IMG/VR virus record: IMGVR_UViG_3300031669_000084
Location: 1 to 40,506 of that record
Length of the DNA stretch: 40,506 nucleotides
Direction: 5' to 3' (one strand)
Source: a virus
Shown: positions 20,185 to 29,756 of the stretch, piece by piece
Numbering within the stretch: position 1 is the first letter of the stretch
How the letters are laid out: each line of letters begins with the position of its first letter
Program-made: the position numbers and the translations under genes
The notes under the pieces: generated by a model
The model's input: the letters and a program-made list of their open reading frames with translations, nothing else
Told to the model about the DNA's origin: nothing
Database searches by the model: none

Positions 20185-20607
20185 GTGAGCAACATCTCAA
20201 GGCGAGGCTTCATAGGATTCATCGGCGCGTGTATAGCAGGCCTGATCCGCATAGGCAAGACAGAGGCGGGCTTTCAGTCCATCGTAGATGAGATGGACCA
20301 CCCGACCCTGCCGGATACGCTGCTCGGGTTCCCCATCGAGTGGACCGACACCAAGTTTGTCGGGAGTGAGAAGATTATCCTGTCGCCCTTGTCATGTGGC
20401 GAGGCGGAACTCGAAGCGGCGAGGATAGCGCGATGGAAAGCCTGGACAAGTCTTGACCTGCCCTGCAACAGGTGCGGCACTACTATGGTGTTTTCGTCGG
20501 GCAACCGGTCAGGCTATCGGTTCAGCAAGCTGGTTTACAAATGCCCGGATTGTGGTTGGGGGATTGAGATGCCGATCCTGTCATGCGAGATCCCGCAGGA
20601 GGATTGA
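20185..20607 (+). CDS. Tat-signal-like zinc-ribbon protein, paralogue 1
   Basis: A 140-residue protein starting GTG at 20185. The N-terminus SRRGFIGFIGACIAGLI matches a twin-arginine (Tat) export signal: SRRxFIG then a hydrophobic stretch. After a shared segment (DHPTLPDTLLG) comes a central stretch PIEWTDTKFVGSEKIILS that differs from its paralogue, then a shared GEAELEAAR-ARWKAWTSLDL and a zinc ribbon with CNRC and CPDC. The product may be exported folded with its metal. Its paralogue is at 21023, two genes on. No function is known to me. Confidence 0.6.
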   Translation: MSNISRRGFIGFIGACIAGLIRIGKTEAGFQSIVDEMDHPTLPDTLLGFPIEWTDTKFVGSEKIILSPLSCGEAELEAARIARWKAWTSLDLPCNRCGTTMVFSSGNRSGYRFSKLVYKCPDCGWGIEMPILSCEIPQED

Positions 20608-21022: not shown

Positions 21023-21463
21023 ATGACGGTATCAAGGCGAGGCTTCATGGGGCTTCTTCTCGCGTGTTTCGCAGGTCTGACGCGCATAGGCAAGACAGAG
21101 GCGGCCTTTCAACGGCTCGCAGATCAGGTGGACCACCCGACCCTGCCGGATACGCTGCTCGGTCGGCCGCTCCTATACTCCAGCAACTATGGCGAGGCGA
21201 GGGAGTCCTTCTGGAAGGAGACCCTCATGCCCTTCTACCGGGACACGCTTGGCGAGGCGGAACTCGAGGCGGCGAGGGTAGCGCGATGGAAAGCCTGGAC
21301 CAGTCTTGACCTGGCTTGCAGTAGGTGCGGCGCTCCTATGGTGTTTTCATGCGTCACTCGCTCGGACGGCCATTGGTTCAGCAAGTTGGTTTACAAATGC
21401 CCGGATTGTGTTTGGCAGTTTGAGGTGCCAATCAAGACATGCGAGATCCCGCAGGAGGATTGA
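21023..21463 (+). CDS. Tat-signal-like zinc-ribbon protein, paralogue 2, carrying a portal-protein fragment
   Basis: A 146-residue paralogue of the protein at 20185 with the same SRRGFMG Tat-like start, the same DHPTLPDTLLG and GEAELEAAR segments and the same C-terminal zinc ribbon (CSRC, CPDC). The central segment differs: residues 54-73 (bases 21182-21241) are identical to residues 313-332 of the portal protein (bases 24660-24719). The DNA of the two copies matches at 55 of 60 bases, and all five differences are synonymous. The short GGCGAGGCG at both edges of the segment could have guided the exchange. It might be a portal decoy, an assembly or exclusion factor, or a chance fusion. Confidence 0.65.
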   Translation: MTVSRRGFMGLLLACFAGLTRIGKTEAAFQRLADQVDHPTLPDTLLGRPLLYSSNYGEARESFWKETLMPFYRDTLGEAELEAARVARWKAWTSLDLACSRCGAPMVFSCVTRSDGHWFSKLVYKCPDCVWQFEVPIKTCEIPQED

Positions 21464-22307: not shown

Positions 22308-23724
22308 CTCTGTACTTTTCAAACTGCAATACCAGTATGACCCCTTGGCCTTCGTCCATGACTGTGTGAGATTCGCCGCCGGCGAACAGTTGGCCGAGTA
22401 CCAAGAGGAGATCCTGGAGGAGCTGATCCCTCGCAAGAGGATTGCGGTGAGGGGCCCCCATGGCCTGGGCAAGACGGCGCTCGCGGCGTGGATCGTGCTC
22501 TGGGCGGTGCTCACAGCAGAGGATGTCAAAGTCCCGACCACGGCATCGGCGTGGCGCCAGGTCACCAAGTTTCTCTGGCCGGAGATCCACAAGTGGTCTT
22601 ATCGGCTGGACTGGAACCGGGTGGGCCGGGCGGCATTCAGCAGAGACGAACTGCTCACACTCTCGCTGAAACTCTCACCAATCCGCGAGGCCTTCGGGGT
22701 GGTCTCGGACAATGCAGCTCTGATCGAGGGGGCCCATGCCCAGCGGATCGTGTACGTGTTCGATGAGGCCAAAGAGATCCCGGATCCAACCTGGGACGCA
22801 GCAGAAGGGGCGTTCGCGGGCGCTGGGGAGGATACGGGAGCAGAGGCTTACGCCTTTGCTATCTCCACCCCAGGGGCACCCGTGGGACGCTTCTATGACA
22901 TCCATGCCCGGAAGCCAGGTTACGATGATTGGTGGCCCAGGCACGTCACGCTCGAGGAGGCGATCAAGGCACGGCGGATCAGCAGGGAATGGGCTGACCG
23001 CAGACGCACGCAGTGGGGGGAGAAGTCGGCGGTCTTTCTCAATCGCGTAGAAGGGGAGTTTGCCAGCTCTGAAGCGGATAGCATCATCTCCCTGAGCTGG
23101 GTGGAAGCGGCCAATGACCGCTGGCGGGAGTGGGTGGAGGCGGGGTCGCCTATGTGCCACAACGAGGATGGCACGTTGAAGCCCATGGACGTCGTGGGGG
23201 TGGACGTAGCCCGATCGGGTGAGGATCAGACCGTCCTGGCCCTGAGATACGGCCAGATCATCACTGAGATCAGGGCGTATAGCAAAGAGGACACGATGCA
23301 GACCACCGGGCGCGTGGTAGGGGTCCTTGAGGGGCATGGGGGCAAGGCCATCGTAGACGTGATCGGGATAGGCGCTGGGGTCTACGATCGTCTGAGAGAA
23401 CAACAGTACGACGCGGAGCCCTTTAATGCAGCCGCGGGCTCCAAGATCAGGGATCAAAGTGGAGAATGGGGTTTCGTGAATCAACGGGCGGAGGCCTGGT
23501 GGACGCTGAGGGAGCTCCTCAGTGACCCGGAGAGCCAGGTGGCATTGCCGCCCGATGATCAGTTGACGGGGGACCTGACCGCACCGACGTGGAAGGCCGT
23601 GAGCGGAGGCAAGATCAGGGTGGAGGCCAAAGAGGACATCAAGAAACGGATCGGCCGCAGCACTGACTACGGGGACGGTGTAGTGCAAGCGTTCTGGCCC
23701 GGCGCGCCCAAGGCGTACTACTAA
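22228..23724 (+). CDS. terL: Terminase large subunit
   Basis: A 498-residue packaging motor. ATPase domain: Walker A GPHGLGKT at 76-83, Walker B VYVFDE at 175-180, and a coupling motif near SISTP-like AISTPGAP at 211-218. Nuclease domain of RNase H fold: GVDVARSGEDQTV with Asp at 326, IVDVIGIGAGVYD near 380, and a final Asp in STDYGDGVVQAF near 485. It packages DNA into the prohead and cuts it. I chose GTG 22228 because GGAGGGGAGAA precedes it; a frame-open ATG at 22201 would add nine residues. The stop overlaps the portal start (TAATG). Confidence 0.93.
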   Translation: MTTSGLSGCSRSLTRQERAEILSLATDSVLFKLQYQYDPLAFVHDCVRFAAGEQLAEYQEEILEELIPRKRIAVRGPHGLGKTALAAWIVLWAVLTAEDVKVPTTASAWRQVTKFLWPEIHKWSYRLDWNRVGRAAFSRDELLTLSLKLSPIREAFGVVSDNAALIEGAHAQRIVYVFDEAKEIPDPTWDAAEGAFAGAGEDTGAEAYAFAISTPGAPVGRFYDIHARKPGYDDWWPRHVTLEEAIKARRISREWADRRRTQWGEKSAVFLNRVEGEFASSEADSIISLSWVEAANDRWREWVEAGSPMCHNEDGTLKPMDVVGVDVARSGEDQTVLALRYGQIITEIRAYSKEDTMQTTGRVVGVLEGHGGKAIVDVIGIGAGVYDRLREQQYDAEPFNAAAGSKIRDQSGEWGFVNQRAEAWWTLRELLSDPESQVALPPDDQLTGDLTAPTWKAVSGGKIRVEAKEDIKKRIGRSTDYGDGVVQAFWPGAPKAYY

Positions 23725-25817
23725 TGGGATTGAGAGACAGGCTGCAACTAGCGGCATGGGCACTGTTCAACAGCAAGGGCATCTCGGGCCTGGACATGCT
23801 GATGGGCGCCGATGCCAAGAGCTGGTTCCCCAAGACCGATTTCAACCGCCTCTCTGCCGAGGGCTACGAGTACAACGCGGTGGTCTATGCCTGTGTGAAT
23901 GAGCGGGCCACGTCCACCTCCGAGCCCAGGGTGGTAGTAGAGACCAAGGATCGCAAAGGCGAATGGCAGGAGAAACCGGATCACTCGATGGCGCGGCTGC
24001 TCGACAGGCCAAACGTGGAGATGAGCCAGTACGACTTCTTCTTCACCACTGTGATGTATCTGGACATCGCGGGGAACGCCTTCTGGGAGAAGGAGCGGAG
24101 CAAGGCGGGCAGAGTAGTGGGGCTCTGGCCCATGCGGCCCGATCGCGTGGGAATCGTCGCTCTGGAGAGCAAGCCTGGCGAGAGGATCAAGCGCCGGATC
24201 GAAAGCTATACCTGGCGGTATATGGCTGATCTGATCACCCTGCCGGCCCGAAATGTGATCCAGTTCAAGCATCAGCACCCCCGGGATGATCTCTTCGGGT
24301 GGCCTCCGCTGGGATCCGCCGCGCGCCAGGGAGACACGGACAACCGCGCCACGAACTACGTGGCCAGCTTCTTCGACAACGCCGCGGTGCCGAAAGGGCT
24401 GCTCTCGGTCAAGGGGCGCATCGATGACGCCGAAGAGAAGCGACTGAAGAAGCGCATTCATGCTCAGTTCACAGGTCAGGGCGGATGGCACGATACGCTG
24501 ATCCTGGGAGAGGGCTCCACGTGGACCGAGCTGGCCGAGACCTTCAAGGACATGGACTTCCCCAATCTCCGCAAGATGACGGAGAGCCGGATCTGCATGG
24601 TCTTCCAGGTGCCGCCAATCCTCATCGGTGCGTTCGTGGGTTTGGAGCACGCTACATACAGCAACTATGGCGAGGCCAGGGAGAGCTTCTGGAAGGAGAC
24701 GCTGATGCCCTTCTACCGGAAGCTCCAAGACACGCTCAATCGGGGCCTGGCGCCGGAGTTTGGGCCGGACGTGCGGATGAGGTTCGACTTCTCGACGGTG
24801 ATGGCCCTCCAGGAGGACAAGAATCAGATCTGGACTCGGGCCAGGGAGGCGGCCACTGCCGGCTTCATCACTGTCAACGACTTCCGGGAGCAGGTGGGCT
24901 TGCCCAGGGTGCAGGATGGAGACGTCTTCCTGCGGCCAATGATGATCTCGGAGATCCCCGCGCTGGAGGAGGGGCAGCAGAAGGCGCTCCAGATCAGCTC
25001 GCCAGAGACGAAGATGGCCAGCAAGCTCGACGAGGAGAAGCTGGAGGTCTACTACAAGGCCTTCGACATGGTGGCCCGGGCCTGGGAGGCACAGTTCCGC
25101 CGCAAGGCACAGCAGCTATTCGCGGAGGAGCTGGCGCAGATCCTGGCCATTCTCCGCAAGGAGGGCAAGGCCTCGATCGAAGGGCTGGCGTTTGCGGGGT
25201 TCCTGGATGCGGTGATCGCCTTCCTCATTGGTCGAAACGGCCAGCAGGGGGCTTGGGCGCAGGGCTTCTTCCCACTGTTCGAGGGGCTGATGGAGAGCCA
25301 GGCGGAGAACGTGGCCGGCGCGCTGGGCATCGCCTGGGACATCGCCTCTCCGGAGGCGCAGGAGTTCATCCGGGGATACACGATCAAGTTCGCCGACACG
25401 GTGGTGCCCACTACCGAGCGCGCGGTGAGGGAGCTGGTGGGGCAGGCGCAGGAGGAGGGGTGGTCGGTGCCCCGGCTGCGCGAGGAGATCACTGAGCGGT
25501 TCACTGAGTTCGATGAACAGCGGGCGAACGCCATCGCCAGATCGGAGACCATCAGGAGCTCCAACGCCGGGACGCATGAGGCCTGGAGATCGGCGGGGAT
25601 AGAGAGGACGCAGTGGTATGCGAGTATCGATGGCCGGCAGTGTCCCTTCTGCGAGGACCTATACATCAAATACGGCCCGGGGACGCCGGGCATCTCGATC
25701 ACAGAGAACTATGTCAATCTGGGGGATACGCTGACGGTGGATGCGGGCGATGGGAAGAGCAAGAGCATGACGGTCACTTATACGGACGTCGCCTATCCCC
25801 CCCTGCACGCGCTTTGA
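23724..25817 (+). CDS. Portal protein fused to MuF-like head morphogenesis domain
   Basis: A 697-residue fusion. Residues 1-410 are an HK97-type portal (NAVVYACVNERATSTSEPRV; DRVGIVALE; NVIQFKHQHPRDDLFGWPPL; the conserved YSNYGEARESFW at about 312-323). Residues 430-530 are helical, and 560-697 a MuF-type domain (RSETIRSSNAGTHEAW; DGRQCPFCEDL; AYPPLHAL). The portal forms the DNA gate; MuF proteins sit at it or enter the cell. The frame ends in TGA where the family has Cys (PPLHxxCRC); nine further residues of perfect MuF character follow in frame. See the separate entry at 25815. The fusion itself is known in other phages. Confidence 0.88.
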   Translation: MGLRDRLQLAAWALFNSKGISGLDMLMGADAKSWFPKTDFNRLSAEGYEYNAVVYACVNERATSTSEPRVVVETKDRKGEWQEKPDHSMARLLDRPNVEMSQYDFFFTTVMYLDIAGNAFWEKERSKAGRVVGLWPMRPDRVGIVALESKPGERIKRRIESYTWRYMADLITLPARNVIQFKHQHPRDDLFGWPPLGSAARQGDTDNRATNYVASFFDNAAVPKGLLSVKGRIDDAEEKRLKKRIHAQFTGQGGWHDTLILGEGSTWTELAETFKDMDFPNLRKMTESRICMVFQVPPILIGAFVGLEHATYSNYGEARESFWKETLMPFYRKLQDTLNRGLAPEFGPDVRMRFDFSTVMALQEDKNQIWTRAREAATAGFITVNDFREQVGLPRVQDGDVFLRPMMISEIPALEEGQQKALQISSPETKMASKLDEEKLEVYYKAFDMVARAWEAQFRRKAQQLFAEELAQILAILRKEGKASIEGLAFAGFLDAVIAFLIGRNGQQGAWAQGFFPLFEGLMESQAENVAGALGIAWDIASPEAQEFIRGYTIKFADTVVPTTERAVRELVGQAQEEGWSVPRLREEITERFTEFDEQRANAIARSETIRSSNAGTHEAWRSAGIERTQWYASIDGRQCPFCEDLYIKYGPGTPGISITENYVNLGDTLTVDAGDGKSKSMTVTYTDVAYPPLHAL
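24660..24719 (+). repeat. Portal segment duplicated at 21182-21241
   Basis: These 60 bases match the segment inside the small protein gene at 21182-21241 in 55 positions, and all five mismatches are synonymous. The encoded 20 residues are identical and belong to the best conserved part of HK97-type portals. Confidence 0.9.
25412..25426. repeat. Dispersed palindrome, site E (reverse orientation)
   Basis: On the - strand it reads ACCGCGCGCTCGGTA, identical to site B at 6345. It lies within portal code (TTERAV), in the opposite orientation from sites B, C and D, which argues for a double-strand DNA signal rather than an RNA hairpin. Confidence 0.7.
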
Positions 25818-25847
25818 CGGTGCACGATCCTGGCCGTGAGCCAGTAG
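25815..25847 (+). other. In-frame continuation of the MuF domain beyond a TGA
   Basis: After TGA at 25815-25817 the same frame reads RCTILAVSQ and ends in TAG at 25845-25847, nine bases before the next ATG. The expected MuF ending is PPLHxxCRCTxL, so the TGA stands exactly where the first Cys should be; one base change from TGC or TGT would create it. The downstream TAG also lies inside the next gene's ribosome binding site, the usual spacing in this operon, which suggests it was the ancestral stop. Confidence 0.75.
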
Positions 25848-25856
25848 GAGGCGAAC

Positions 25857-26249
25857 ATGCAACAGTCTGGACAGGACTACAAGCAAAACCGCGACTTCCA
25901 TCTGAACGGGATGCACCGCAAGACCTTCGTAGAGACGGCAATCATCGACTACGACGCCGATGCTCGAAACTCAAGCGCCGTGGACCTGCGTGGTTACGGC
26001 CTCCTCGGCCTGATCGTGCCCGTGATAGACAATGCGGCGATCACATTCTACGTGTCGGACACCGAGGCCGGGACTTACGTGCAGGTGCAAAACGCGACGC
26101 CCGCAGCGGTGACGATCGCGGCCAGCGTGGGAACCATCGCCATCGACAGCACGGTGCTGGCAGCGCTGTCGGGCTACCGTTGGGTGAAGGTCCAGACGGG
26201 GGCTGACCAGACGGCGGATCGCACCTTCCTGTGGATCCTGAAGGGGTAG
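25857..26249 (+). CDS. Small beta-rich virion protein, possibly decoration or connector
   Basis: A 130-residue protein: a polar start (MQQSGQDYKQNRDFHLNG), then strands VDLRGYGLLGLIVP, AITFYVSDTEAGTYVQVQN, VTIAASVGTIAIDS and LSGYRWVKVQTG. The pattern suggests a beta-sandwich such as capsid accessory proteins carry. It lies between portal and protease behind TAGGAGG. No family motif is visible, so the role is inferred from location. Confidence 0.5.
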   Translation: MQQSGQDYKQNRDFHLNGMHRKTFVETAIIDYDADARNSSAVDLRGYGLLGLIVPVIDNAAITFYVSDTEAGTYVQVQNATPAAVTIAASVGTIAIDSTVLAALSGYRWVKVQTGADQTADRTFLWILKG

Positions 26250-28748: not shown

Positions 28749-28772
28749 GGGGAGGGGTGAAAGCCCCTCCCC
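28749..28772 (+). other. GAAA-capped hairpin after the major capsid gene
   Basis: A nine-base-pair perfect stem GGGGAGGGG/CCCCTCCCC, extended by one T-G pair and closed by a GAAA tetraloop. There is no T run, so it is more likely a 3' stabiliser of the capsid mRNA or an attenuator than a full terminator. The next gene's ribosome binding site begins right after it. Confidence 0.55.
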
Positions 28773-28786
28773 AGCAGGAGGCCAAT

Positions 28787-29248
28787 ATGGAGAGAGCACT
28801 GTACGAACTGGACAGGTTCGACAATGACGTGACGGCGAGCTATTTCGAGCCTCAGCTCGTAGCCGCAGGCGCGGAGCCGACTGGAGCATGGCTGAGTATG
28901 CTACCCTATGACAGGGCGATGTTCATGCTCATGGCCGGCGACTGGACCAATATCGGGGACCAGTTGGACGCGCAGGTGTACCAGGCCACGACCAACGCTG
29001 GAGCTGGCGCGAAGGTCATCGCCGGCAAGGCGATCACGACGTACACCAGCCTGGCGACGGACGAGGACAATCTCTGGTACATCCACATCGATGTGTCAGA
29101 GCTGGACGTGGACCTCTACTTTGCCTACATCCAGCTTCAGATCACCGTTTCGGCAAACGATTCGGTCTATATCGCCGCGCTGTGTGAGCGGGAGAGCCGC
29201 GTGTTCGAGCCCGTTCCTGTAATCAACGTGACTGAGATTATCGCATAG
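28787..29248 (+). CDS. Putative capsid decoration-type protein, copy 1
   Basis: A 153-residue protein; ATG 28787 follows CAGGAGGCCAAT, so I prefer it to an upstream in-frame ATG. Beta-rich pattern: YDRAMFMLMAGDWTNIGDQL, KVIAGKAITTYTSLATDED, LWYIHIDVSELDVDLYFAYI, LQITVSANDSVYIAALCER. It shares its plan with the protein directly downstream (VSxxExDVDxYF, ITVSADDxxYIA), so the pair arose by tandem duplication. Placement right after the capsid gene suits a decoration or capsid-surface protein; no direct evidence. Confidence 0.55.
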   Translation: MERALYELDRFDNDVTASYFEPQLVAAGAEPTGAWLSMLPYDRAMFMLMAGDWTNIGDQLDAQVYQATTNAGAGAKVIAGKAITTYTSLATDEDNLWYIHIDVSELDVDLYFAYIQLQITVSANDSVYIAALCERESRVFEPVPVINVTEIIA

Positions 29249-29261
29249 CCAGGAGGGCGAA

Positions 29262-29756
29262 ATGCCAGAAGACAGCTTGATCGAGAGAGACCGGCACGAT
29301 GGGGACGCGGTGGCTTGTTTGGTGGAGCCGCAGATCCTCGCCGCCGGCGTGACCACGACCCCAACGGTGACCATGAGGGGCTATGACCGCGTTGTGTTCT
29401 CCATCCTGGGCGGCGCGGCCAATGACGCTAACGCCACGCTGGATGTGCTGGTGCAGCAATGCACGCAGGCGAACGACGCGGGCGCCGACGACAAGAACCT
29501 TGCGGGCCTGTATGGCAGCAAGGCGATCACCCAGGTGACGGCTGGAGCGGACTTCGCCACTCTCAATCAGAAGTGGCTGATCGAGGTGAGTACCGAGGAA
29601 ATGGACGTCGATGCCTACTTCGACTTCCTCCTGCTGGAGATCACCGTGAGCGCGGACGACACCTGGTACATTGCAGTCGAGGCCCAGCGCAGCGGGGCCG
29701 ATTACGAGCCAGTGGCAATCACGAACATCACTCAGGCGATAGGCACGACCGCATAA
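29262..29756 (+). CDS. Putative capsid decoration-type protein, copy 2
   Basis: A 164-residue paralogue of the preceding protein, with matching segments CLVEPQILAAG/SYFEPQLVAAG, DVLVQQCTQANDAGA/DAQVYQATTNAGAGA, GSKAITQVT, IEVSTEEMDVDAYFDFL and ITVSADDTWYIAVEAQ. The two have diverged enough to be separate components rather than a recent copy. Likely in the virion shell, by position. The gene follows an AGGAGGG ribosome binding site. Confidence 0.55.
   Translation: MPEDSLIERDRHDGDAVACLVEPQILAAGVTTTPTVTMRGYDRVVFSILGGAANDANATLDVLVQQCTQANDAGADDKNLAGLYGSKAITQVTAGADFATLNQKWLIEVSTEEMDVDAYFDFLLLEITVSADDTWYIAVEAQRSGADYEPVAITNITQAIGTTA

Follow-up and report, generated by a model that had tools for sequence, protein, structure and literature searches.

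A TGA codon on the conserved cysteine of a phage portal–MuF fusion as a candidate site of translational recoding

Why the gene of a phage portal protein carries TGA on a conserved cysteine codon of its fused MuF (head morphogenesis) domain, with the code for the rest of the domain intact behind it, was explored in a virus record of 40,506 bases (the window). Little is understood about MuF proteins, a widespread group whose best-studied member is present in 1–2 copies beside the portal ring. The window virus was probably a temperate tailed phage because its genes included a serine recombinase, HTH repressor-like and ParB-like proteins, and a structural set (terminase, portal, protease, and major head protein); a recombination directionality factor-like gene was also present. 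Two adjacent genes at 28757–29248 and 29262–29756 had the same PHROG match of unknown function (phrog_28483) and were probably formed by tandem duplication. The features of the locus and of the loci compared with it are given in Table 1.

Table 1. Positions of the features in the window and in other portal–MuF fusions (the latter preceded by the locus name).
Feature	Position	Strand	Remarks
Portal with fused C-terminal MuF domain, up to the TGA	23724..25817	+	697 aa
C7 run coding PP of PPLH	25797..25803	+	11 nt upstream of the TGA; possible slip site, unsupported
In-frame TGA on the conserved first Cys of PPLHxxCRC	25815..25817	+	context CTT TGA C; placed by alignments
MuF tail code RCTILAVSQ past the TGA, with the second Cys	25818..25844	+	9 codons
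Hairpin CTGGC-CGTGA-GCCAG	25830..25844	+	TGA-to-loop distance 17 nt; G at loop position 2
TAG closing the MuF frame	25845..25847	+	overlaps Shine-Dalgarno AGGAGG (25846–25851) of the next gene
Next gene, matching no family	25857..26249	+	130 aa; ATG at 25857
Candidate +1-frame CRC tail at TAT-CCC-AGG	L005:3360–3510 (JGon-2020a); L010:2730–2890 (Anoxybacillus plasmid)		unannotated
T7–T10 linker runs	L006:2652, L007:2718, L015:2107, L017:5790, L019:1408, L023:2860, L024:5532, L025:6173		

The gene was identified as a portal gene by Pfam Phage_portal (PF04860, 242.6 bits) and by the PHROG portal family (331.6 bits). The frame ended as DVAYPPLHAL-TGA-RCTILAVSQ-TAG, in which the C-terminal motif PPxHxxC(R)C was complete except for the Cys codon (PPLHAL-TGA-RC). 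In the alignments, the TGA column was the first Cys of PPxHxxC(R/N)C; neither this column nor the Cys two positions further on varied in alignments of 12 and of 34 MuF domains, many of the 34 having been chosen by the PPxHxxC motif itself. The score for PF04233 (Phage_Mu_F) was 27.5 bits without the tail, which is below the Pfam cut-off of 29.6 bits, and rose above it to 38.0 bits when the TGA was read as Cys and the tail was included. With this reading, the PF04860 and PF04233 profiles were both matched, as for a portal–MuF fusion. The domain modelled with Cys at the TGA had a mean pLDDT of 89.8, and a PDB fold search gave no meaningful match. Truncation at the TGA should disturb the MuF domain because the predicted last β-strand (residues 255–259) sits within the tail. 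The gap to the next gene was 9 nt from the TAG versus 39 nt from the TGA, and the neighbouring junctions measured 9, 15, 13, and 20 nt. The TAG overlapped the ribosome binding site of the next gene, where the initial annotation had placed it. The central claim of that annotation, a TGA on the conserved MuF Cys followed by intact MuF code, was confirmed by the frame, the alignments, and the profile scores as a real feature of the sequence.

Part of the portal gene was also represented elsewhere in the window. A segment of 61 bp at 21181–21241 was 92% identical to the portal-gene DNA at 24659–24719 and was in frame within the small ORF at 21023–21463, so that the product of this ORF bears the portal peptide SNYGEARESFWKETLMPFYR. 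The small proteins encoded at 20185–20607 and 21023–21463 were paralogous (62% identity, an SRRGF start, and Cys pairs), and in the latter the portal-derived segment replaced its own one.

The favoured explanation, which was given a probability of approximately 0.45, is that the UGA is recoded and that a minority of the chains gains the CRC tail. Most ribosomes would stop at 25815 and release a portal protein whose MuF domain is ten residues short at its end, and a minority would insert an amino acid at the UGA and complete the CRC tail. The inserted residue may be a near-cognate Trp, Cys, or Arg, or it may be selenocysteine. A fusion would supply 12 MuF copies unless completion were limited; recoding could be this limit, and a complete MuF domain would then be confined to some of the 12 portal subunits. 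We infer the readthrough, its rate, the residue inserted, and the purpose in stoichiometry. Each SPP1 capsid holds 1–2 copies of the MuF protein gp7, which forms a complex with the portal (PMC5576092), and the A1 protein of Qbeta is a precedent for UGA readthrough (PMC8067240). A point against recoding is that Trp inserted by readthrough would not restore the Cys.

Two frameshifts at or near the TGA were considered and rejected. The context CTT TGA C presumably matches the prfB frameshift site; the +1 frame there reads DGARSWP-stop, which is not MuF code. Slippage at the C7 run was likewise dismissed because the alternative frames were without MuF code.

All IMG/VR contigs were scanned for PPxHxx-TGA-(R/S)-C-T. 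Four stretches were returned, of which two were chance matches and two (L096 and L097) came from one virus. The frame of this second virus ended as YPPLHVF-TGA-RCTLLPVVA-TAA, and its tail code was intact. The same TGA with an intact tail in a MuF protein of only 35% identity to that of the window argues for UGA recoding. L096 and L097 were 99.6% identical across 6.9 kb and both carried the TGA; hence, a sequencing error at this codon of L096/L097 was excluded. The MuF domain of L096 was encoded by its own gene, which overlapped the portal gene. The stoichiometry argument fits this virus poorly because its MuF protein is not fused to the portal. Tails with the TGA were very rare among the motif-matched ones, with this one further virus in IMG/VR against at least 120 stretches from a scan for the Cys form of the motif; the 80 loci from the latter scan, among the matches listed, were of Cys type or chance. 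A wider xCT scan gave 14 further matches, all by chance, and no extra MuF gene with TGA. The matches of the scan for TGA in HPxC-type MuF genes were also due to chance only, and no MuF relative seen in genome contigs had TGA at the PPxHxxC Cys.

The second virus bears on two simpler explanations. A base-calling or assembly error at 25817 of the window contig was regarded as improbable. The window TGA rests on a single contig, and IMG/VR yielded neither a close relative nor a near-identical second copy of it. However, the two contigs of the relative L096/L097 share this TGA and keep the tail code intact, and the frame is correct on either side of the window TGA, so that a substitution rather than an indel would be required. 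The reading of the site as pure error, one of those offered initially, was thus weakened. The other explanation, that TGA is a sense codon throughout the virus or its host, was refuted: TGA ended 22 of the 40 non-overlapping window ORFs and 15 of the 38 in the L096 contig, and the MuF gene of L101 itself ends in TGA. The code was therefore unchanged overall, as the initial annotation had held.

A recent nonsense mutation (TGC to TGA), also proposed at the outset, was the main competitor of recoding. According to this explanation, the tail is dispensable or loss of the gene is under way, its tail code persists as a relic, and the change arose twice independently. The initial annotation had considered that all relatives might stop at this codon and lack the downstream code; this was not so, and most relatives carried TGC or TGT and read on. 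Most relatives of the window MuF domain were distant (24–44% identity). The relatives of L096 at 84–87% nucleotide identity carried TGC and the same tail, which favours nonsense; the TGA of L096 is therefore recent, a point against recoding. Between L096 and its TGC relatives, the tail had six synonymous and no nonsynonymous differences in 27 codon comparisons, a point for recoding, although the stretch is too short to be decisive. Only two to four tail codons were one substitution from a stop, the first Cys always among them; hence, a nonsense mutation in the tail would often strike this Cys. Furthermore, SPP1 gp7 is not needed for assembly, and just ~25% of the virions without it are infectious (PMC6316719). 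On the other hand, the TGA was kept in both L096 and L097 despite their 0.4% divergence, the residues of the window tail still followed those of the clade (consensus R, C, T, I/L, L, V), and the predicted fold places its last β-strand in the tail.

The distribution of the TGA was evaluated with a tree of 50 MuF domains built by maximum likelihood. One clade of eight members (support 98/98) contained the window and L096, which were not sisters. The TGA would therefore have been gained, or lost, at least twice within this clade. The other six clade members had TGC, and the TGA was absent from the remaining 42 of the 50 rows. Such clustering, with both events in a small clade and no TGA among the other rows, argues against nonsense. 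The placement of the sole other TGA virus in this clade by chance would be roughly a 2–3% event because only two (L218 and L244) of the 80 sampled loci, among the matches listed, belonged to the clade. This coincidence is suggestive but not decisive, since there are few events and TGA at this codon was what the scan targeted. The same two facts, just two independent TGA events and a scan aimed at this codon, weigh against recoding, as does the finding that the fused clade relatives L218 and L244 were without a recoding signal. On balance, recoding was ranked first, and tolerated nonsense followed closely as a still strong rival, possible but less probable.

Within the share given to recoding, a special case is that selenocysteine is inserted at the UGA through a downstream bacterial SECIS (bSECIS) in a selenocysteine-using host. 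This case was judged unlikely. The UGA stands on a Cys that is invariant in relatives, and Cys homologues are close by, as would be expected of a selenoprotein. The bSECIS model comprises a stem of 4–16 bp, a loop of 3–9 nt with G in the first two loop bases, a spacing of 16–37 nt, and an energy of −7.5 kcal/mol or lower (PMC13188914). The initial annotation had pointed to a short CACG/CGTG stem after the TGA (25824–25839) and to a bSECIS search of the bases that follow. The stem was present, with its arms at 25823–25826 and 25835–25838, but the hairpin listed in Table 1 was the stronger local structure. This hairpin, with a stem of 5 bp, the loop CGTGA, and a spacing of 17 nt, fitted the bSECIS geometry, but its energy of −7.2 kcal/mol (one flanking base per side included) fell just short of the limit, and a competing fold was present. 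The L096 hairpin (TGCTACC-GGT-GGTAGCG, spacing 17, −8.6 kcal/mol) agreed with the model in geometry and energy. However, a bSECIS-like hairpin occurred in 33 of 85 motif-matched MuF tails, nearly all with Cys, and in ~20% of random sequences. At a spacing of 16–17 nt, it occurred in 9 of the 85 tails (including four of the L096 group) versus 2.5% of random sequences. The hairpin was also retained in the TGC relatives of L096, and the synonymous conservation at it was ordinary (equalled in 69 of 208 six-codon stretches). SECIS-like remnants have been described in Cys homologues (PMC1794560); with such fossil hairpins, the hairpin frequency may cut both ways.

A search for hosts in Chloroflexota and Actinobacteriota found no close prophage and one isolated terminase match. 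The Actinobacteriota genome with this closest match (57%) encodes tRNA-Sec, but its terminase is an isolated remnant. No tRNA was found in the window, which counts against selenocysteine, and Rfam gave no match at the TGA site; tRNA-Sec genes have been reported for Basilisk-like phages (PMC6145125). The conserved Cys looks structural rather than redox-catalytic. The literature searched yielded no phage selenoprotein. The fuller proposal, a phage structural selenoprotein with selenocysteine at the portal–MuF CRC motif and a UGA that also limits the number of completed portal subunits, would be slightly less likely again. Readthrough and selenocysteine, both raised in the initial annotation, gained circumstantial support and are retained as candidates.

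Two other groups of portal–MuF fusions also bore recoding signatures. An early end of the portal–MuF frame was seen in Parageobacillus phage JGon-2020a (L005) and in an Anoxybacillus plasmid (L010). These genes were not simply tail-less: a CRC-containing tail, GDPNLSAKQRIKCRCAELHRVKEG, was found in the +1 frame from TAT-CCC-AGG. The 25 tail codons compared between the two comprised 14 identical, 11 synonymous, and no nonsynonymous codons, whereas the 152 body codons comprised 82 identical, 55 synonymous, and 15 nonsynonymous codons. Because the tail differences are all synonymous, unlike those in the body, the tail is very likely translated through a +1 shift, and the site is a probable programmed +1 frameshift. 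All examined members of the GBK2/Silence-type fusions had a T7–T10 run at the portal–MuF linker. For at least one alternative frame, slippage on it would lead to a stop within 0–4 codons. The MuF part of L025 was out of frame past T9, and for this locus alone a homopolymer assembly error is possible. The T run was absent from L005, L010, and the window. Given the +1-shift site and the linker T run, putative recoding that would decide between a whole and a partial MuF domain on the portal subunit recurs in the portal–MuF architecture in differing forms. The JGon/Anoxybacillus and GBK2 groups are, against this support for recoding in the window, just distantly related to it. These signatures and the second TGA virus within the clade are new here.

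If recoding is true, the UGA, the +1 shift, and the T run of portal–MuF genes would explain how unequal stoichiometry is obtained from a fusion. Gene callers would truncate such proteins in every case and hide the CRC tail. If the inserted residue is selenocysteine, no earlier phage structural selenoprotein is known to us.

The candidate was compared with four known systems. In the coat/A1 pair of Qbeta (PMC8067240), a leaky UGA likewise ends a structural gene and gives a minor, longer virion protein. Qbeta is an RNA phage with a long extension and inserted Trp, whereas the tail in the window has 10 residues, its UGA is on a conserved Cys, and the readthrough is a prediction. The programmed +1 frameshifts of SPP1 gp17.1* and Listeria phage PSA (PMC6316719, PMC5009743) fix the ratio of two structural proteins by recoding at a proline codon, a site that resembles CCC-AGG in L005 and L010; the window would differ in using same-frame readthrough in a portal–MuF gene. 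The bSECIS selenoproteins (PMC13188914, PMC1794560) share with it a UGA replacing a conserved Cys, Cys homologues, and a fitting hairpin distance, but the Cys here belongs to a virion protein and is no known redox centre, and the hairpin is indistinguishable from chance. Finally, SPP1 gp7 and the MuF superfamily (PMC5576092) have the same domain and the same portal partner; gp7 is encoded by a separate gene, whereas the window has its MuF domain joined to the portal, with a UGA interrupting it ahead of the CRC tail.
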